Positions 4,458-15,574 of a stretch of 34,002 nucleotides of DNA are shown here, in pieces. This stretch comes from Pseudomonadota bacterium. GTDB taxonomy: Bacteria > Pseudomonadota > Gammaproteobacteria > Burkholderiales > Burkholderiaceae_C. The DNA is taken from contig JAUNUR010000031.1 of assembly GCA_030538085.1 (NCBI GenBank), forward strand, positions 1 through 34,002, in the 5' to 3' direction. The notes beneath the pieces are model-generated. The model was not told the origin of the DNA and ran no database searches. It saw only the letters and a list, made by a program, of their open reading frames with translations. The translations under genes and the position numbers were made by a program. The stretch's first letter is position 1. Every line of letters begins with the position of its first letter.

Positions 4458-4671
4458 ACCTATGGAGAGTTTCGTAAGTCAGGACAAGCCTAAGTCATGC
4501 CTTCACCTCATCCCGTCATTGCGGCGAAGGCCGCAATCCACACGGTGTCCGTGGGTCAACACCGTGTCAAGGTGACGCCCCATGGATTGCGGCCTTCGCC
4601 GCAATGACGAGGGGATATGAGGGGATTTTTCTGATGACCCGCGCTGTCGTGATTATTGAAAATATCAATAG
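4458..4671 (+). repeat. family A repeat, copy A2 (short form, ~213 bp)
   Basis: The left end reads AACCTATGGAGAGTTTCG (one mismatch to the usual CTATTGAG) and the right end GAAAATATCAATAG. The two 27-bp arms are at 4514-4540 and 4583-4609, an exact inverted repeat. A third hairpin CACGGTGT / ACACCGTG lies between them at 4541-4566. It occupies most of the 372-bp gap between glnG and the SagB-like gene. The first ~85 bp of that gap (4371-4457) show nothing recognisable. Confidence 0.92.
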
Positions 4672-4741: not shown

Positions 4742-5488
4742 TCAGTGCTTCTTGGCGGGCGCGCCGCAGGCGTACACGATGACCGCGGGCCAGCCCCGTC
4801 CGTCCAGGCCGAACAGGCGCAGCAGCGCGTCGTCGTGGTACGAGCCGATAGGCACGCCCGCCAGGCCCAGCTCGGCCGCTTGCAGCGCCAGCGCGCCCAT
4901 CATGGCGCCGGCTTCCAGCAGCAGAAAGCGGCCGCCGCGTTCGCCGTACTTGCGCTGCAAGGCGTCGCTGGCGGCGGCCAGCAGCCACACGCTGGCCGGC
5001 GGCGTGGGCCAGTCGACCCCCAGGGCGCGGGCCATGTCGGGCCAGGGTGGTACCGGGCCCAGCGGCGTGAGCGCGTGGGTGGTCGGCGCATAGGCCACGC
5101 GCTGGCCCGCCAGTTCAGCCACGCCGGTCACCGCGTACAGCGCGCCCCAGGCCAGCAGCGGGTATTTGGCGCCGCCCGAGGGCAGGTGGCGCGTGCCGTC
5201 GGGCCGCGCGGCCAGCGGCAGCAGCAGGGTGCTGAGCTGCGCGGGCGTGAGCGGCGCCGGGCCAAAGGCGCGCCCGCTGGCCCGGCGCCCGTACAGCGGC
5301 GCCAGCGCCGACCGCGGCGGCGGCAGTGGCATGGCGGCCCGTGCATGGCGCGGCTGGGGGGCGCTGGCGGGACGAGCGGCGTCACGGCCGATGCGCTCGG
5401 CCATGCGCTCGGCCTGCGTGGGGTTGAGCGTGCCGTTCAACCAGAAGCGGTCGAACAGCGGTGCGGGGTCGTCGGCGGGCGCGGTCAT
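4742..5488 (-). CDS. SagB-type azoline dehydrogenase (nitroreductase fold)
   Basis: A protein of 248 residues. In TOMM pathways this FMN enzyme oxidises thiazolines/oxazolines to thiazoles/oxazoles. Family signatures: RRASGRAFG (residues 68-76, FMN phosphate contacts in the family), the LPSGGAKYPLLAWGALYAV block (102-120) typical of SagB proteins, THALTPL after it, and YGERGGRFLLLEAGAMMGAL (181-200). The start at 5488 (MTAPADD) is chosen because its ATG overlaps the stop of the upstream YcaO gene by 4 bp (ATGA), implying translational coupling. It is the last gene of the minus-strand cluster. A plain nitroreductase is the alternative, but adjacency to YcaO and an E1-like gene argues for SagB. 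Activity of this copy is inferred. Confidence 0.85.
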   Translation of the reverse strand: MTAPADDPAPLFDRFWLNGTLNPTQAERMAERIGRDAARPASAPQPRHARAAMPLPPPRSALAPLYGRRASGRAFGPAPLTPAQLSTLLLPLAARPDGTRHLPSGGAKYPLLAWGALYAVTGVAELAGQRVAYAPTTHALTPLGPVPPWPDMARALGVDWPTPPASVWLLAAASDALQRKYGERGGRFLLLEAGAMMGALALQAAELGLAGVPIGSYHDDALLRLFGLDGRGWPAVIVYACGAPAKKH

Positions 5489-6777
5489 CCAAGCGGGTGC
5501 GGCAGCGGGTTGGGAAAAGCGGTGTGCCGCCGGGCACCGGGGTAGCGCCATTCGGCGTCGTCGGTGCGTCCGCCCAGAAAAGGCGCGCGCTCATCGGCGT
5601 GCAGGGCGCTCAACTGGGGCGAGAGCGCGCGCATCACCACCAGGCCGGTGGCAGCCACGTCGGTGGTGGTCAGATCGCGGTACAGCACCTGAATGCCATG
5701 GGCGCGCAGCGCGGCCTGCAAGACCTGCAATTGCGCCAGCGGCGTGGCGGGTGGCGTGGCGGTTTCGGGCGGCGGCTGCCAGGGCGCGCGGTGTGCCAGC
5801 AGGGCGGTGCGCGGCCACAGCTCGGGCCGCAGGGTGTAGAAGGCCGCGTGTTCGTCGAACCGGCGCAGTTCGGCTGGCTCGGTGGGCAGCGGATGGGCGC
5901 GCGCGGCGCCTTGTGTGAGGTGCCGCACATAGGCCAGGCTTTGCGCCCATTCCTGTGCGGCCTTGTGCAACGCATCGGCCCGCGTGGCCCGGCAGGCCAT
6001 GCCCAGCACCGGCCGTGGGCGCCCATCGCAGGCGATGCTGCCGGCCACGGCCACGACGGGGTGCGGGTTCCAGCGCTGCGTCAGATCGAACGCGTGTACT
6101 TGCCCATCGTGCCCATCCAGCGCGGCGATGGCGTGGCGCCAGCCCTCGGGCAAGGCGATTTCACGCCCACCCAGTCCGCACAGCCAGGTGACGGTGAGCG
6201 CATCACGCTCCAGCAGTTCCTGTACCGCGCGCAGCAGCGCCAGCCAGGGGCCTTGCGTGCCCGCGCGCTGCGCGGCCAGCCCGCTGCTGGTGGACGGCAG
6301 GCGCGCGCTGCCCATGCGCGGGCCCAGGCCCACCAGCTCTTGCGGAACCCACAGGCGCCGGTTGTCGTGCAGGCACCAGACGGGGGCGAACCAGTCGTCG
6401 GGGCCGGCATGCAGCGGCCATTGAAAGCCGGGCGTGTGGCGTTGGGCGTCGGAAAACAGGGCGAAGGCCGGTTCGTCCAGACGCTCCTGCGCTGGCAGGC
6501 TGGCGCGGCGGCGCAGCGGTAGCGGCACCTGGGCGGCCGCCAGGCGTTCCAGCGCCTCGGCGATGGCGCCGGCTTCGGCCTCGTGCGCGTTGGCCGCCAC
6601 GGCGCCAGAAGGCGTTTGCCAGGCGTTGGAGCGGTCGGCTGGCACGCTGGCGTTGACCAGGTGGGGTACATCACAAGACTCGGGCGCCAGCCGGTGCACC
6701 GCCGGCACCAGGCCGGCGCGCGCGCTGGCGGCGCGCCGCAGCAGATGACGTGACAGCGGTGGCGCGGTGGTGCTCAT
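5485..6777 (-). CDS. YcaO-domain protein, probable TOMM cyclodehydratase subunit
   Basis: A protein of 430 residues. YcaO enzymes use ATP to activate a backbone amide so that Cys/Ser/Thr side chains cyclise to azolines. Visible signatures: AGAIAEALERLAA (69-81, the Sx3ExxER-like ATP-binding helix), SGLAAQRAGTQGPWLALLRA (165-184) and VQELLERDAL (185-194, the ELxERDA motif). Late in the chain RDLTTTDVAATGLVVMRALS (367-386) matches the typical dlT.dv..Gl.Vvra segment. The last residues PNPLPHP (422-428) form a PxPxPxP tail like the proline-rich C-terminus important in TOMM YcaO proteins. The start at 6777 is chosen over the upstream codon at 6807, which lies in repeat B1; a weak GGA precedes it. 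The gene is 4-bp coupled to the dehydrogenase. Confidence 0.88.
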   Translation of the reverse strand: MSTTAPPLSRHLLRRAASARAGLVPAVHRLAPESCDVPHLVNASVPADRSNAWQTPSGAVAANAHEAEAGAIAEALERLAAAQVPLPLRRRASLPAQERLDEPAFALFSDAQRHTPGFQWPLHAGPDDWFAPVWCLHDNRRLWVPQELVGLGPRMGSARLPSTSSGLAAQRAGTQGPWLALLRAVQELLERDALTVTWLCGLGGREIALPEGWRHAIAALDGHDGQVHAFDLTQRWNPHPVVAVAGSIACDGRPRPVLGMACRATRADALHKAAQEWAQSLAYVRHLTQGAARAHPLPTEPAELRRFDEHAAFYTLRPELWPRTALLAHRAPWQPPPETATPPATPLAQLQVLQAALRAHGIQVLYRDLTTTDVAATGLVVMRALSPQLSALHADERAPFLGGRTDDAEWRYPGARRHTAFPNPLPHPLG

Positions 6778-6784
6778 TCCAATT

Positions 6785-6953
6785 TCAGAGGTTGTCCTCA
6801 AATTCATCGCGGTAAGCGATTGCCCCGGATCGGGTGTGCTGCAAGGCGCATTTCGCAGCCAATAGCCTGTGCTATTGGCAAGGGATGCAACGCCGCAGGG
6901 CGCCCGAGACCGGGGACAAGCACGGCGCGAGGTGTTTGGGGACAGCCTCTCGG
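6785..6953. repeat. family B repeat, copy B1 (complete, ~169 bp)
   Basis: The left end CAGAGGTTGTCCTCAAA and right end TTTGGGGACAGCCTCT are imperfect inverted repeats (14 of 16). Inside is a CCAATAGC-CTGT-GCTATTGG hairpin (near 6860-6880). The same sequence recurs at 33893-34002 and, shortened and inverted, at 15891-15937. It begins 8 bp upstream of the YcaO start codon, so it separates YcaO from the upstream cluster genes. Confidence 0.88.
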
Positions 6954-6971
6954 ATCAACGCCGCAATACCT

Positions 6972-7051
6972 TGTCATTGCTGCGAAGGCCGGAATCCAGA
7001 CGGCGTGTGCGGGGAAAAACATGGATCCTGCGGCCTTCGCGTGGATGACGG
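6972..7051. repeat. degenerate family A core
   Basis: TGTCATTGCTGCGAAGGCCGGAATCCA on the left and GGATCCTGCGGCCTTCGC...GGATGACGG on the right resemble the two arms of the family A core with several mismatches. The CTATTGA ends are missing. It directly follows repeat B1, so the 302-bp gap between the YcaO gene and its upstream neighbour is almost wholly repeat. Confidence 0.65.
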
Positions 7052-7079
7052 TTATTGACGCCTTGACGTGGAAATGGAA

Positions 7080-7565
7080 TCAGCTCAGCCACGCCAGCAT
7101 CTCAAGCACGCTGACCGCCAGGGCCAGAACCAGCAAGCCGATGCCAATGGCCACGCCCTTGCCCGGGCGGCCTTGTGTGGCGCCGTAAACGTAGGCCGAG
7201 ATGGCAACGAAGCCACCCACTGCCAGCAGCAGCGCCAGGCCGACAAGCTGCGCGTCTGCCTGGAACGACAAGCCAACCAGCGCCAGCAGCGCAGGGGCCG
7301 TGGCCCAGCCCAGCAGGCGCGCTCTGATGGTGCCGAGCTTGCGGTGGGGCTGAGGTGGTTCAGGTGGCGCGGCATGGCTGGTGTTGTCTGCCGTGCCCTG
7401 GCCTTTGGCCGCGCTGGCGAAGACCTCGCCAGCCAGCACGCTGGTGCCCAGCAGCGTGACCACGCAGGACGAGCAGGTGGTGGAGGTGGAGCCACCGCCG
7501 GCCACCGCGTGGGCGTCGGGGGCGACACGTGCTTGCGGATCGAACTGGTCGGGAAGGCGAAGCAT
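7080..7565 (-). CDS. membrane protein with N-terminal CSSC segment; candidate TOMM precursor
   Basis: I do not recognise the family. The 161-residue product has a hydrophilic N-terminus with VAGGG at 21-25, then STSTTCSSC (26-34), a run of Ser, Thr and Cys suited to azole formation, then VVTLLGTSVLAG. A Pro-rich linker (about 59-75) follows, and then three likely membrane helices (about 83-101, 107-128 and 137-160). It starts 20 bp after the stop of the E1-like gene and precedes YcaO on the same strand, so it sits where a TOMM precursor gene often lies. The GGG could mark a leader/core boundary. A precursor fused to a membrane domain would be unusual. Alternatives are an immunity or export protein, or a membrane protein whose CSSC pair binds metal or forms a disulphide. 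That it is a real gene is well supported; its role is inference. Confidence 0.75.
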   Translation of the reverse strand: MLRLPDQFDPQARVAPDAHAVAGGGSTSTTCSSCVVTLLGTSVLAGEVFASAAKGQGTADNTSHAAPPEPPQPHRKLGTIRARLLGWATAPALLALVGLSFQADAQLVGLALLLAVGGFVAISAYVYGATQGRPGKGVAIGIGLLVLALAVSVLEMLAWLS

Positions 7566-7585
7566 GCGCGGGCTTTCAGGTCAGG

Positions 7586-8395
7586 TTAGGTCAGGGCGGG
7601 GGCGGCCCAGGGCAAATCGAGCCGGCCGCTGGTGGCTGGCTCGGGCAAGGCGCTGGCGCCGCACACCGGGCAGTGCGGCTGGCGGTACACCGCTTCGCGC
7701 TGGCTGGTCAGGGTGTGCAGGTTCAGGCTGGTGGTCTGTTCGATCCAGGCCAGCCGCGTGCGCTGGCCCGTGCTGGCGTGCAGAGCCTGTGCCAGCAGGG
7801 CGGCCACCAGCGGCCAGGCGGCCTGCGCGGCGGGTACCGGGGGCAGGGGCGCCTCGCCCCAGCGGTGCGCGATGCGGTGGCCCAGACAGGCCACGCACGC
7901 CGTGTCGCCGGGCACCACCAGCGGGCCAATGCACAGCGTGTGATGGTGCGCCAGATCCACCAGCAGGTGCGTGCCGCGTGGGGGCGCTTGCTGGTAGGCC
8001 GCCAGCGCCTGTGGCCAAGGGGCGTTGCTGCGGATCACCACGGTGAGGCGCGTGTCATCGCCTGCATCGTCGTCCGTGGTCAGCTCCAGCCCTGGCAGCG
8101 CGGTCAGCGCGGCCTGCAGCGCTGGCAGCGGCTCGCCCAGCCAGTGCAAGACCAGCCGTGCAGGGGTAGTCAAGGCGCTGGCCGGCACCAGTGCGCCGAC
8201 ATGCCGCAATTGCCGCACGGCGGCGGCGGTGCGGGCATCGGCCAGCAGGGCTTGCCAGCGGGACGGCTGGGTTTCAGGCGCTGCATGCCAGGCGGCCAGC
8301 ACGGCCTGCGCGGCGGTGGTGTCGGGCAGTTCGTCGAGCCAGTAGCTTTCGTCGGCACCGCCGGACAGCAGCAGGCTGGTATCGACCAGCGACAA
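7586..8395 (-). CDS. E1-like / TOMM precursor leader-binding (cyclodehydratase partner) protein
   Basis: About 269 residues from the TTG at 8395. In TOMM systems such proteins bind the precursor's leader peptide and present it to YcaO. The best signature is CIGPLVVPGDTACVACLGHR (about 155-174), matching the 'GPlf.PG.t.C..Cl..R' hallmark of the cyclodehydratase/E1-like family. A second Cys pair, CPVC (242-245), probably completes a zinc site with Cys167/Cys170. The protein is shorter than full-length fused E1-YcaO proteins, fitting a stand-alone partner. The start is uncertain: there is no in-frame ATG near 8400. TTG codons at 8395, 8443 and 8452 are possible, and an ATG at 8420 is in another frame. 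It is first in the minus-strand cluster and divergent from the PAP2 gene. Confidence 0.8.
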   Translation of the reverse strand: MSLVDTSLLLSGGADESYWLDELPDTTAAQAVLAAWHAAPETQPSRWQALLADARTAAAVRQLRHVGALVPASALTTPARLVLHWLGEPLPALQAALTALPGLELTTDDDAGDDTRLTVVIRSNAPWPQALAAYQQAPPRGTHLLVDLAHHHTLCIGPLVVPGDTACVACLGHRIAHRWGEAPLPPVPAAQAAWPLVAALLAQALHASTGQRTRLAWIEQTTSLNLHTLTSQREAVYRQPHCPVCGASALPEPATSGRLDLPWAAPALT

Positions 8396-8431
8396 TGTCC
8401 AGCACGGACTGTGTATCCATGAAGGTGGCGG

Positions 8432-9112
8432 GTGACGAGGCAAGGCGGACAAGAAGATGGAGTGAGCGGTTGGCCGACCCAGGCGGACGGCAAGCCAACA
8501 TACCCGGTGGGTCGGGCCATGGCCTGGCTGGCGCTGCTGGGCGCTGTGTTCGTGCTGGGCTACTCTAGCACCAACGCCCGCGCCGCCTTGCTGCCCACGG
8601 TGGCGCGCCTGGGCGGCCCGTGGGACGCATGGCTGCCGTTCTGGCCCTGGACGCTGCTGCCCTATCTGAGCCTGAACCTGATCTACCCGTGCGCTTTGCT
8701 GGCGCAGCCCACGCGCGCGGCGCTGGACCGCTTGGCATTGCGCCTGGCAGCCGTGCAACTGGCGTGCCTGGCAGTGTTCTGGCTGTGGCCCACGGGCGCC
8801 ACGCGCCAGCCGCCCGCGCTGACCGGGCCGTGGGGCTTGTTGTATGCGCAATTGCGCGCGTTCGAGCAGCCATTCAATCTCTTCCCCTCGCTGCACGTGG
8901 CCGTGCTGGTGCTGGCCTGGCACGCGCTGACGCCCGCGTTGCCAGCGGTGGCGCGCTGGGCATGGCACGGCTGGTGCGTGCTCATCCTGGTGTCCACGCT
9001 CACCACCTGGCAGCACGATCTGATCGACGTGGCGGGCGGCTTGGCCGTGGGCCTGGTGGCGCTTGCCTGGCGGCCACCCCGAATCAAGCGGTGCTTGTCC
9101 GGGGTCGGATAG
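8432..9112 (+). CDS. PAP2-family membrane phosphatase / phosphotransferase
   Basis: Up to 226 residues with about five or six hydrophobic helices. It belongs to the PAP2 branch related to inositol-phosphorylceramide synthase and bacterial 'PAP2/dual-specificity phosphatase' proteins. WLPFWPWTLLPYLSLNLIY (about 69-87) is the typical N-terminal block. The active-site motifs are FPSLHVAV and TLTTWQHDLIDVAGG, each with a catalytic His. The substrate is probably a lipid phosphate in the inner membrane. The GTG at 8432 has AAGG 6 bp upstream and is taken as the start; a GTG at 8462 or ATG at 8519 (just before the first helix) are alternatives. It is divergent from the TOMM-like cluster with 36 bp or less between starts, so the two may share a control region. 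Confidence 0.85.
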   Translation: MTRQGGQEDGVSGWPTQADGKPTYPVGRAMAWLALLGAVFVLGYSSTNARAALLPTVARLGGPWDAWLPFWPWTLLPYLSLNLIYPCALLAQPTRAALDRLALRLAAVQLACLAVFWLWPTGATRQPPALTGPWGLLYAQLRAFEQPFNLFPSLHVAVLVLAWHALTPALPAVARWAWHGWCVLILVSTLTTWQHDLIDVAGGLAVGLVALAWRPPRIKRCLSGVG

Positions 9113-11965: not shown

Positions 11966-12070
11966 TGGCCGCGGAGCAGGCCAAGCCAGAACGCCGTGGT
12001 CGGGGTCTCCCCGACCACCAGCGTTGTCCCCCTCAGGGGGAAGGCGCCGCAGGCGACTCAGGGGGAGCGT
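11966..12070 (-). repeat. family C repeat, copy C1
   Basis: Reverse complement of the repeat at 32975-33080, aligned over about 100 bp. It contains a perfect 10-bp stem GTGGTCGGGG / CCCCGACCAC (11996-12018), framed by AACGC and GCGTT, plus a second palindromic part around CCCCCTCAGGGGG. It lies between the divergent darP and pmbA genes, ending 16 bp before the pmbA start. Confidence 0.85.
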
Positions 12071-12085
12071 CAGTATGATGCCACC

Positions 12086-13459
12086 ATGCAAGACACATCC
12101 AAGCCCCTGGCGGGCTTTTCTTATTCCCGCGCCTTCTTCGAAGAGCTGGTCGACACCGCGCTGGCGCATGCCAAGAAGCTGGGCGCCACCGACGCCGGCG
12201 CCGAGGCGTCGGAGGGCTCGGGCCTCAGCGTGAGCGTGCGCAAGGGCGAGCTGGAGACGGTGGAGCGCAACCGCGATAAGTCGCTGGGCGTGACGGTGTA
12301 CTTGGGCCAGCGGCGCGGCAATGCCAGCACGTCGGACTTCTCGCGCGCCGCCCTCGAGCAGACGGTGCAGGCGGCCTACGACATCGCGCGCTTCACGGCC
12401 GAAGACCCGGTGGCCGGCCTGCCGGACGAGGCCGACATCGCCCAGCCGAAGGAGCAGCGCGACCTGGACCTGTTCCACCCCTGGCCCATCACCAGCGAGC
12501 AGGCGGCCGAGATGGCGCTGGCCTGCGAGCGCGCGGCGCTGGCGGTGGACAAGCGCATCACCAACAGCGAGGGCGCGGGCGTGTCGGCGCAGCAAAGCCA
12601 TTTCTTCAGCGCGCACACGCACGGTTTTCGCGGCGGTTATGCCAGCTCGCGCCACAGTTTGTCGGTGGCGCCGATTGCGGGCAAGGGCAGTGACATGCAG
12701 CGCGACTACTGGTACAGCTCGGAGCGCAACGCTTGCAACCTGGCCGCGCCCGAGGCCGTGGGCCGCTACGCCGCCGAGCGCGCGCTGAGCCGGCTGAAGA
12801 GCCGCAAGATCGGCACGCGCCAGTGCCCGGTGCTGTTCGAATCGCCTCTGGCTGCCGGCCTGCTGGGCAGCCTGACGCAGGCGCTGAGCGGTGGAGCGTT
12901 GTACCGCAAGACCTCGTTCCTGGTTGATTCACTGGGCAAGCCGGTGCTTCCCAAGCACATCGACGTGGTGGAAGACCCGTTCGTCGTCGGCGGCAAGGGA
13001 TCGTCACCGTTCGACGAGGAGGGCGTGCGCGTGAAGGCGCGCAAGGTGGTGGATGCGGGGCGGGTGGAGGGCTACTTCCTCAGCACCTATTCGGCGCGCA
13101 AGCTGGGTATGAAGACCACCGGCAACGCGGGCGGCTCGCACAACCTCACGCTGTCGTCGCGCCTGACGCGCGCGGGCGACGACCTGGACGCCATGCTGCG
13201 CAAGCTGGGCACCGGCCTGTTCGTGATCGAGCTGATGGGCCAGGGCGTGAACTACGTGACGGGCGACTATTCGCGCGGCGCCAGCGGCTTCTGGGTAGAG
13301 AACGGCCGCATCGCCTACCCGGTGCAGGAGATCACCATCGCCGGCAACCTGCGCGAGATGTTCATGGGCATCCAGGCCGTGGGTGCCGATACCTACACCT
13401 ACGGCTCGAAGACCGTGGGTTCGGTGCTCATCGACAAGATGACGGTGGCGGGCAACTGA
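12086..13459 (+). CDS. pmbA: metalloprotease PmbA (TldE)
   Basis: A protein of 457 residues. It partners TldD; the pair is known for microcin B17 maturation and CcdA degradation in E. coli and is widespread as a housekeeping protease. Recognisable family blocks: AEASEGSGLSVSVRKGELE near residue 45, VLFESPLAAGLLGSL in the middle, GFWVENGRIAYPVQEITIAG and the C-terminal end DKMTVAGN. PmbA itself lacks the HExxxH metal site found in TldD, and none is seen here. The start at 12086 is preferred because it follows repeat C1. A link to the nearby TOMM-like cluster is tempting, since TldD/E process a TOMM in E. coli, but pmbA beside darP is a common arrangement without any TOMM. Confidence 0.95.
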   Translation: MQDTSKPLAGFSYSRAFFEELVDTALAHAKKLGATDAGAEASEGSGLSVSVRKGELETVERNRDKSLGVTVYLGQRRGNASTSDFSRAALEQTVQAAYDIARFTAEDPVAGLPDEADIAQPKEQRDLDLFHPWPITSEQAAEMALACERAALAVDKRITNSEGAGVSAQQSHFFSAHTHGFRGGYASSRHSLSVAPIAGKGSDMQRDYWYSSERNACNLAAPEAVGRYAAERALSRLKSRKIGTRQCPVLFESPLAAGLLGSLTQALSGGALYRKTSFLVDSLGKPVLPKHIDVVEDPFVVGGKGSSPFDEEGVRVKARKVVDAGRVEGYFLSTYSARKLGMKTTGNAGGSHNLTLSSRLTRAGDDLDAMLRKLGTGLFVIELMGQGVNYVTGDYSRGASGFWVENGRIAYPVQEITIAGNLREMFMGIQAVGADTYTYGSKTVGSVLIDKMTVAGN

Positions 13460-13816: not shown

Positions 13817-15574
13817 TTACTGCACCATCATGATCCGCCGTTGCTCGCGTTGGGGCATGGCGGCGGGCTCATGCATGGGTGGAGCGGGGCGCTGCAGGCC
13901 ACCGCCCAGCTCGCCGGGCGAGAAGGCACGTGGTGAGGGCATGGCGGGCGCGCGCATTTGCAGCTCGCGCAAGCGCTCTTGCTGCTGGCGCTGCAGTTGC
14001 TGCTGCATGCGCTGCTGCTCCGCCATGGCGCCGCCCTGATTGACCAGCGCGGGCGGTGGGCCGTGGCGCAGGTAGCGGTCGCGTTCCATCATGTCGGGGC
14101 CAGGCCGTGGGTTGACCGGGGGCTGGAACACGCGGCGCCTGTCGTCGCCGCGCGGCATGCTGGGCAACGGTGGGGGCAGTATGCCGCGATCAGCGCCGAT
14201 GCGCGTGTCGCGCGGGTCGGTCATGCCATGGCGGTCGGGGCGTGGCATGGGCAGTGGCAAAGACGATGGCGGCGGCGCCTGGGTGGATACCCCCGGCACA
14301 TACGCCCGTGGGGGTGGCGTGATGATGCGGGTGCCCGTGAGCGCGCCGGAAGGCAGGCGGCTGCCATCGCCATGGCGCGGTCGCCGGTCGCGCTTGCCAC
14401 CACCGAACTGATCGATCGGTGCCACGCTGATGGCTCCGGGACGGCGCTGGAAGTGGTAGCCATCGTTGGCTGGTCGTCGCACGCGGCCATCGCCCCAGTT
14501 CAAGCCGCGCCAATAGCGGTCGCTGGCGTGGTAGTGCGGATGCCAGGGCTCGCCCGGCGCCAGGGGGAACCACGCGGCGCCAGGGCTGCCCACCGACAGA
14601 CTCCAGTTGTCGCCGCTCATGAAGGCCACCAGCGCCGGTGCATACACCGGCCGCGGGCCGAAGCTGCCAGGCACCCAGGCCCAGCGCGGGCCAATCTGCG
14701 CCCAGCGGCCGTAGTGCGAGGGCGCGAAACCCCAGGGCGCATCGTCCACCCAGGTCCAGCCCCAGGGATCGACCCAGGCCCAGCGGCCGTAACGGTAGGG
14801 CGCCCAGTCCGACACGCTGACCCGCGGGTACCACACGGGGCCGTAGGTGGCGTCCCGCGCCCATTCACCATGGGCGTCGAGCTGGTGGTAGCCGGGCATG
14901 TCGCGCGGCACGTAGCGGGCCGAGCTTGAGCGGTCTTCCAGCGCGTTGCGCTGGGCTACCCACTGGTCGAACCCGTCGCGGTAGGCCGCGCCCCCGCGCT
15001 GGACGATCTGCAGATCGCGGCCAGTGAACAGCATCTGCTGGTGCTGGTCCATGGTGGTGGACTGGCCGGCTTCGCCATACACCGTGGCCGTGCCGGCATG
15101 CACGGTGACGCGCGTGGTGTCGGCGCGCCGATCAACGTCCACCCGGTATTCGCCGGCCTGGTTGGCCACCACGGCCAGGTGCGGCGTGTCGATCTCGACG
15201 CGCTCGCCCGGTTGCAACCGACGCACGCGCACCGAGGCCGTGCCGTCCATCAGCGCGACCTGCGTGGTGTCGTCGTTCAGCGCGGTCACGCTCAGGTCGG
15301 CTGGGCCGGTCAGGCGCAGGGCCGTCTCGCCGCCGTGCAGTTCGGCGCGTGCACCGGGGTCGGTGACGATGCGGGTGCCGGTGGTCACCGGCCAGTTGAT
15401 GGAAGCGGGTGCAAAGCGCTGCCCGTCGGTGGCGATCTGCACGGCGCCTTCGGCGGCGCTGACGTAGGCCACGCGCGAGGGTGGGTCGGCCTGCGCCCAG
15501 CCCAGCAGGGGAGAGGCCAGCAGTAATGCGCCGCCAAGCCAGCGGCGCCAGGGCAAGGATGTGGGTTGCGTCAT
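13817..15574 (-). CDS. secreted FecR-domain / DUF6600-type protein
   Basis: A protein of 585 residues with a signal peptide (LPWRRWLGGALLLASPLLGW, then AQA). An N-terminal FecR-like beta-rich domain (about 30-190) carries typical phrases such as RIVTDPGARAELHGG and LQPGERVEIDTPHLAVVANQ. A Trp/Tyr/Gly/Pro-rich region (about 225-350) repeats units like YRYGRWAWVDPWGWTWVDD and HYGRWAQIG, as in DUF6600 proteins. The C-terminal third is Pro/Arg-rich and disordered with a Gln-rich stretch (MQQQLQRQQQERLRELQ). There is no C-terminal anchor, so it is probably periplasmic or exported. Function unknown. Unlike true FecR it has no cytoplasmic anti-sigma part and no sigma factor beside it. Confidence 0.87.
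   Translation of the reverse strand: MTQPTSLPWRRWLGGALLLASPLLGWAQADPPSRVAYVSAAEGAVQIATDGQRFAPASINWPVTTGTRIVTDPGARAELHGGETALRLTGPADLSVTALNDDTTQVALMDGTASVRVRRLQPGERVEIDTPHLAVVANQAGEYRVDVDRRADTTRVTVHAGTATVYGEAGQSTTMDQHQQMLFTGRDLQIVQRGGAAYRDGFDQWVAQRNALEDRSSSARYVPRDMPGYHQLDAHGEWARDATYGPVWYPRVSVSDWAPYRYGRWAWVDPWGWTWVDDAPWGFAPSHYGRWAQIGPRWAWVPGSFGPRPVYAPALVAFMSGDNWSLSVGSPGAAWFPLAPGEPWHPHYHASDRYWRGLNWGDGRVRRPANDGYHFQRRPGAISVAPIDQFGGGKRDRRPRHGDGSRLPSGALTGTRIITPPPRAYVPGVSTQAPPPSSLPLPMPRPDRHGMTDPRDTRIGADRGILPPPLPSMPRGDDRRRVFQPPVNPRPGPDMMERDRYLRHGPPPALVNQGGAMAEQQRMQQQLQRQQQERLRELQMRAPAMPSPRAFSPGELGGGLQRPAPPMHEPAAMPQREQRRIMMVQ

Follow-up and report, generated by a model that had tools for sequence, protein, structure and literature searches.

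A five-gene cassette that pairs TOMM-type enzymes with a predicted membrane-protein precursor in a Burkholderiaceae_C bacterium

A 34,002-nucleotide stretch of DNA from a Pseudomonadota bacterium of the Burkholderiaceae_C (GenBank assembly GCA_030538085.1, contig JAUNUR010000031.1, positions 1 to 34,002 of the forward strand; hereafter the window) carries a cassette of five genes that seems to encode a thiazole/oxazole-modified microcin (TOMM) pathway. The initial annotation had read three enzyme genes as an azole-forming TOMM pathway without an obvious precursor. The pathway is supported by the enzymes, their motifs and a matching Ser/Thr/Cys core, but the absence of a precursor is not, and the gene list, correct for the three enzymes, lacked both the precursor gene and a divergent PAP2_3 gene. 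The cassette is composed of:

4742-5488, minus strand: SagB/McbC-type flavin mononucleotide (FMN) dehydrogenase, putative azoline oxidase; 248 amino acids, PF00881, McbC profile match, K180-Y181
5485-6777, minus strand: YcaO cyclodehydratase (D protein); about 430 amino acids, PF02624, C-terminal PxPxP
7080-7565, minus strand: candidate precursor, between the E1 and YcaO genes; 161 amino acids, with leader, GGG, core and predicted membrane segments
7586-8452, minus strand: E1-like leader-binding protein/cyclodehydratase partner (C protein); about 288 amino acids, TIGR03882, four Cys
8462-9112, plus strand: PAP2_3-type lipid phosphatase/transferase-like membrane protein, divergent from the biosynthetic genes; PF14378

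Seventeen loci were compared, all of them found by YcaO similarity: the window, 14 contigs from a YcaO-protein scan of a species-genome collection, and the genomes G079 and G162. The 14 contigs come from Variovorax, Bordetella (two), Candidimonas, Aquabacterium, a member of the Comamonadaceae and eight Stenotrophomonas, and thus represent the Comamonadaceae, Alcaligenaceae, Sphaerotilaceae and Stenotrophomonas. The E1, precursor, YcaO, SagB and PAP2_3 genes stand together in all 17. Unrelated partner genes at homologous clusters, proposed beforehand as the observation that would speak against a TOMM pathway, do not occur in this set.

The three enzymes were correctly recognized from their open reading frames (ORFs) as an E1-like protein, a YcaO protein and a SagB-type dehydrogenase on one strand, the minus strand. 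In hidden Markov model (HMM) searches, the E1-like protein scores 46.3 bits against TIGR03882 (cut-off 36.9), the YcaO protein 121.9 bits against PF02624 (cut-off 25.7) and the dehydrogenase 46 bits against PF00881 (cut-off 23.5). A profile of the SagB-type protein matches ten chains in the PDB, including a SagB-type protein, CyaGox and McbC (6gos, 3e-11); that of the E1-like protein gives weak matches to TruD (3.7e-5) and LynD (0.0062), and that of the YcaO protein nothing at 1e-3. The YcaO stop and the SagB start (5488) overlap by 4 bp, as first described; position 6777 is the best start for YcaO, with a second in-frame ATG at 6807. Motif conservation was read from homologues of 12 of the 17 loci; for E1, the alignment leaves out L006 (a metagenome-assembled genome with a shorter E1), L023, L011, L015 and L017. 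The CVAC motif of E1 and its second Cys pair, CPVC, are conserved throughout, all four residues (C186, C189, C261 and C264) being invariant in 12/12. The E1 start originally placed at 8395 misses W12, P16 and W18, which are equally invariant and lie upstream, and so comes too late; the TTG at 8452 is the probable start and the best candidate. Invariant in all 12 are also the prolines of the YcaO C-terminus (N-P-L-P-H-P-L-G, a PxPxP tail) and the K180-Y181 pair of the SagB-type protein. The PxPxP tail and the Lys-Tyr motif are hallmarks of TOMM enzymes. Because the E1 partner, the PxPxP tail and the Lys-Tyr motif are each invariant, azol(in)e chemistry is indicated, and the assignment of the three proteins as a real TOMM E1-like protein, YcaO cyclodehydratase and SagB/McbC-type dehydrogenase, together with a matching S/T/C core, supports a TOMM-type azole pathway.

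The ORF at 7080-7565 on the minus strand is intact (161 codons) and begins with MLRLPDQFDPQARVAPDAHAVAGGGSTSTTCSSCVVTLLG. It comprises a leader (residues 1-22), GGG, the core STSTTCSSC (residues 26-34), a hydrophobic segment, a linker and three further predicted membrane segments, so that its product appears to be a polytopic membrane protein and not a short peptide. The gene is found in 17/17 loci, in 18 copies coding for 151-288 amino acids, always between E1 and YcaO. Searched with tblastn at E 1e-10, the window precursor was found in eight of ten tested loci, and the copies of L018 and L023 were recognized by the motif. A run of S/T/C-only residues directly behind Gly-Gly is present in all 18 precursors (nine residues in 17, ten in one). 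Mean pairwise identity, calculated from 10 of the 17 loci (without L006 and six additional Stenotrophomonas, and with one of the two G162 copies), is 0.86 for the Gly-Gly and core, 0.54 for the leader, 0.36 for the first hydrophobic segment, 0.23 for the linker and 0.30 for the membrane part. Core codons compared in 605 pairs from 11 of the 17 loci were identical in 297 cases, synonymous in 290 and nonsynonymous in 18. Since the core is S/T/C-only in 18/18 copies and is the most conserved region, and since the gene occurs in every locus, this ORF is taken as the precursor, and the earlier statement that the cluster lacks an obvious stand-alone precursor has to be withdrawn.

In G162 (locus L024, 3096-4109) there are two tandem precursor genes with near-identical leaders, each with its own membrane part, and with the cores STTTTCCCT and CTTTTCSCT; the letters of these variants differ, yet all remain heterocyclizable residues. 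A hydropathy scan places a hydrophobic segment at or directly behind the core in all 18 precursors, followed by three further segments in 16 of them and by two in the remaining ones (L016 and L018). The last segment contains a Glu and a Trp that are invariant in the 15 aligned copies, and the short loop ahead of it has a net positive charge in 18/18. The window precursor has no match in NCBIfam and a single sub-threshold model in Pfam (CPP1-like, 10.7 bits, E 0.39); a nitrile-hydratase-like or Nif11 leader was not found with either collection.

The fifth gene codes for a protein that matches PF14378 with 33.2 bits (cut-off 27), has no NCBIfam match and finds nothing in the PDB at 1. It is divergent from E1 in 15/17 loci and downstream of SagB in the other two. 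A PSLH motif, a Gln-His pair and an Asp are invariant in 13/13 aligned proteins, so that both the PAP2_3 profile and the catalytic His/His/Asp set are present. Between the five cassette proteins, pairwise distances show correlations of 0.85 to 0.96 (10 loci, calculated without an unrelated control gene). Eight loci without the cassette, from the same family as the window (L046-L053), carry longer PAP2-containing proteins, and the ancestry of the cassette PAP2 may be visible there. In six of the eight the ORF measures 405-509 amino acids, gene picking not showing the PAP2 match in the other two; all eight share genes with other loci of the set. In L051, Pfam gives the PAP2 protein a C-terminal dual-specificity-phosphatase match (both domains below cut-off) and also finds genes for a CDP-alcohol phosphatidyltransferase, an acyltransferase and a cytidylyltransferase, so that, judged by these genes, this relative is in a phospholipid-synthesis setting.

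The distribution of the cassette is sporadic. YcaO relatives at 1e-20 occur in 2/150 genomes of the family and 2/300 of the order, the window's own genome being counted in each. A precursor profile, in which the window sequence had been entered one codon off and without its first Met, found 1/369 genomes of the class (the own one) and gave six hits in 398 genomes of the phylum, two of them credible (the own genome and G162). The other four, weak matches with E 9e-4 to 5e-3, cover profile positions 61-173 only, that is, linker and membrane part without leader or core, and were rejected. Neither of the two genomes drawn from the same genus (G015 and G146) has a YcaO match. In G015, about 640 bp of other DNA separates ntrC from xthA and the cassette is absent from the site, while in G146 the two genes are on different contigs. 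Stenotrophomonas copies branch among those of Burkholderiales in the YcaO tree (midpoint-rooted for drawing, five of 14 inner branches strongly supported), a pattern consistent with transfer. A plasmid collection contained neither the precursor (E 1e-5) nor YcaO (E 1e-20), and viral contigs contained no YcaO relative, the phage collection not having been searched. The five cassette genes are the only ones common to the loci, with no common transporter or protease gene; extra genes shared outside same-genus or near-identical groups are few (one between L006 and L018, one among L007, L012 and L014). L006 (9972-10901) and L024 (224-1012) have, right behind SagB, a glutathione S-transferase-like gene that is 42% identical between them; it was considered as a cassette part and rejected, since it was found in these two only.

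The best reading of these data is that the cassette represents a TOMM subfamily with a polytopic membrane protein as its substrate. E1 would bind the leader, through an MxRLPxQFD-like stretch, E1 and YcaO would form azolines from Ser, Thr and Cys of STSTTCSSC by cyclodehydration, and some of these would be oxidized to azoles by the SagB-type enzyme. As substrate, the enzymes would use the N-terminal end of a small membrane protein of the polytopic type, in which the azole core adjoins a membrane segment. As the initial annotation already remarked, the cluster itself shows neither a transporter nor a protease gene, and a dedicated exporter together with an immunity or protease gene, as in Sag- or Mcb-type systems, was not found in it; PAP2 might still serve for immunity. 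Because protease and exporter are missing from the cassette, we infer that the leader would be kept, or trimmed by a general protease, and that the product would be tethered in the membrane or act at it. The PAP2-like protein might act on a membrane phospholipid as an immunity, lipid-handling or tailoring partner. That the TOMM pathway acts on the 161-residue precursor is likely; given such a pathway, the chances that the product is retained in the membrane are about even. For the complete proposal, a mature inner-membrane protein with an azole-rich N-terminus that works with a co-inherited phospholipid phosphatase/transferase and is not released as a peptide, the probability is put at roughly 0.35.

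YcaO/SagB pathways are regarded as makers of small secreted peptides. If the proposal is true, azole chemistry would extend to membrane proteins, and the product would be an azole-modified membrane machine instead of a secreted antibiotic. Its interest lies in the combination of a constant five-gene set, ring-forming enzymes that would work on the N-terminal end of a membrane protein, a PAP2-like gene at every locus found and the lack of any exporter or protease shared by the loci. For this cassette, looking for precursors among short ORFs only is unsuccessful, and a GGSTSTTCSSC-like motif followed by a membrane segment could be used to find more.

Several observations weigh against this proposal. 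Under the positive-inside rule, the loop that precedes the last segment would be cytoplasmic, which places the linker inside and, if the first segment spans the membrane, the N-terminus outside; at face value, this predicted topology conflicts with modification in the cytosol, unless the first segment inserts afterwards or does not span. The HMM support is also uneven, since, besides the models exceeded, the dehydrogenase stays under the cut-off of TIGR03605 (56.1 bits against 78.4), YcaO under that of TIGR03604 (133.5 against 219.25), and the match to TIGR03603 among the cassette enzymes under that of this model (20.5 against 187.65). A RiPP (ribosomally synthesized and post-translationally modified peptide) recognition element was not matched in the E1 N-terminus by hhalign against 26 PqqD sequences, a shallow alignment with an effective sequence number (Neff) of about 2.4. 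In the genome, PF01523 finds PmbA/TldE as its sole match and no TldD. Seen from PAP2, the pairing is not an exclusive one, since relatives are common outside cassettes as well: at 1e-8 they occur in 25/150 family genomes, only two of which are cassette holders (G000 and G079), and the non-cassette matches listed have 28-44% identity. The precursor, a product of 151-288 residues with membrane segments and without a family model, is unlike the TOMM precursors known to us. Finally, expression of the cassette in this strain is uncertain, because a repeat, described below, separates the precursor from YcaO.

The strongest alternative is an ordinary released azole peptide, similar to a bacteriocin or cytolysin. 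It would consist of the core, perhaps joined by the first hydrophobic segment, after cleavage from both leader and membrane domain, and the membrane domain would be a built-in carrier, exporter or immunity part. It is compatible with the pathway and opposes membrane retention alone. The order of leader, GGG and S/T/C run resembles that of streptolysin S-like precursors, the hypervariable linker (0.23 identity) is what would be expected of a disposable spacer, and tandem precursors with variant cores, like the sporadic distribution, are typical of bioactive peptides. On the other hand, the loci share no gene for a protease or exporter, and the membrane part is retained in all 18 precursors, keeps its invariant Glu and Trp and has been duplicated with each core. 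A released product is less likely than not, but a serious possibility.

It is less probable, and on balance unlikely, that in this strain the cassette is degenerating or not expressed through insertion of the following element, which lies outside the pathway and resembles a miniature inverted-repeat transposable element (MITE):

6785-6951, no strand assigned: MITE-like repeat of about 165 bp, inserted between the precursor and YcaO genes

This repeat stands 7 bp ahead of the YcaO start, and the gap between precursor and YcaO is 302 bp in the window, against a range of -4 to 71 bp among the other 16 loci (some starts being approximate). Nevertheless, each of the five ORFs is intact and has its motifs conserved. 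The genome contains at least 35 further near-full copies of the repeat (87-99% identity), some of which also match their own reverse strand (69-71%); the copy at 6785-6951 forms a long hairpin (RNA fold z-score -5.6), although the repeat search lists no inverted repeat there. A partial copy is found at the contig end (33893-34002). Separately, a palindrome resembling repetitive extragenic palindromic (REP) elements lies between ntrC and the cassette (4497-4626), and a half related to it is found at 7029-7050, between the precursor and YcaO genes.

A different chemistry, with YcaO making a thioamide or azolines only and the SagB-like protein doing something else, is improbable: YcaO proteins also produce thioamides and amidines, and the scores under the TIGR03604 and TIGR03605 cut-offs would suit this view, but the E1 partner, the PxPxP tail and the Lys-Tyr motif argue against it. 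Hardly any weight is left for the idea that the membrane ORF codes for an accessory or immunity protein, with the real precursor elsewhere, since its unusual length, membrane segments and missing family model are outweighed by an S/T/C-only core that is its most conserved region, by tandem duplication with core variation and by its constant place between E1 and YcaO.

Genes around the cassette in the window were considered as further parts of it and rejected: in 10 of the other 16 loci, tblastn at E 1e-10 found none of the glnA-, ntrB- and ntrC-like genes, xthA, the glycine-zipper gene, the MoCF-domain gene, darP, pmbA and the DUF6600 gene. The PmbA/TldE metalloprotease gene (11996-13459, plus strand), which adjoins darP, was also rejected as a dedicated protease, as it is not near any of the 10 tested cassettes, and its proximity here is probably accidental. 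The DUF6600/FecR-domain protein (585 amino acids) is encoded at 13817-15574 on the minus strand. With regard to an anti-phage link, the cassette has no PADLOC match.

A description of this TOMM family was not found in the literature by title and abstract start (subscription papers not covered), and a peptide-string search returned no paper. In the consulted parts of a survey of about 20 TOMM families (PMC4603692), no family with a membrane precursor or a PAP2 gene appears. The mobilisins treated there (Cox et al. 2015) share with the cassette a minimal B, C and D cluster and a precursor that is hard to find; according to the same portion of that text, they are mainly actinobacterial, a fused cyclodehydratase is mentioned, and a membrane precursor or PAP2 is not described (PMC4603692). 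Like the cassette, microcin B17 has separate C, D and B-type enzymes (McbBCD), McbC being the PDB match noted above, but its McbEFG-kind immunity and exporter genes are not seen here, and the cassette differs from it in the multi-segment predicted membrane precursor and the PAP2 partner. TOMM leaders can be removed by general proteases: in microcin B17 a cluster protease is unneeded, the leader being trimmed by TldD/E, which halts at the first heterocycle (PMC10885120), whereas the window genome has PmbA/TldE without TldD by PF01523. The cassette precursor and those of streptolysin S-like cytolysins (SagABCD) have in common a leader, a Gly motif and a contiguous Cys/Ser/Thr core served by B, C and D enzymes; in the cassette, an ABC (ATP-binding cassette) transporter and a SagE-like gene were not found and a long membrane part follows the core. 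TOMMs with nitrile-hydratase leader peptides (NHLP) or Nif11 leaders also have precursors beyond the usual length with a partly folded domain (PMC12455567); their leader is long and structured, whereas that of the cassette has only about 22 residues, and the extra domain of the latter, without a family match, is of a predicted membrane type and stands behind the core.

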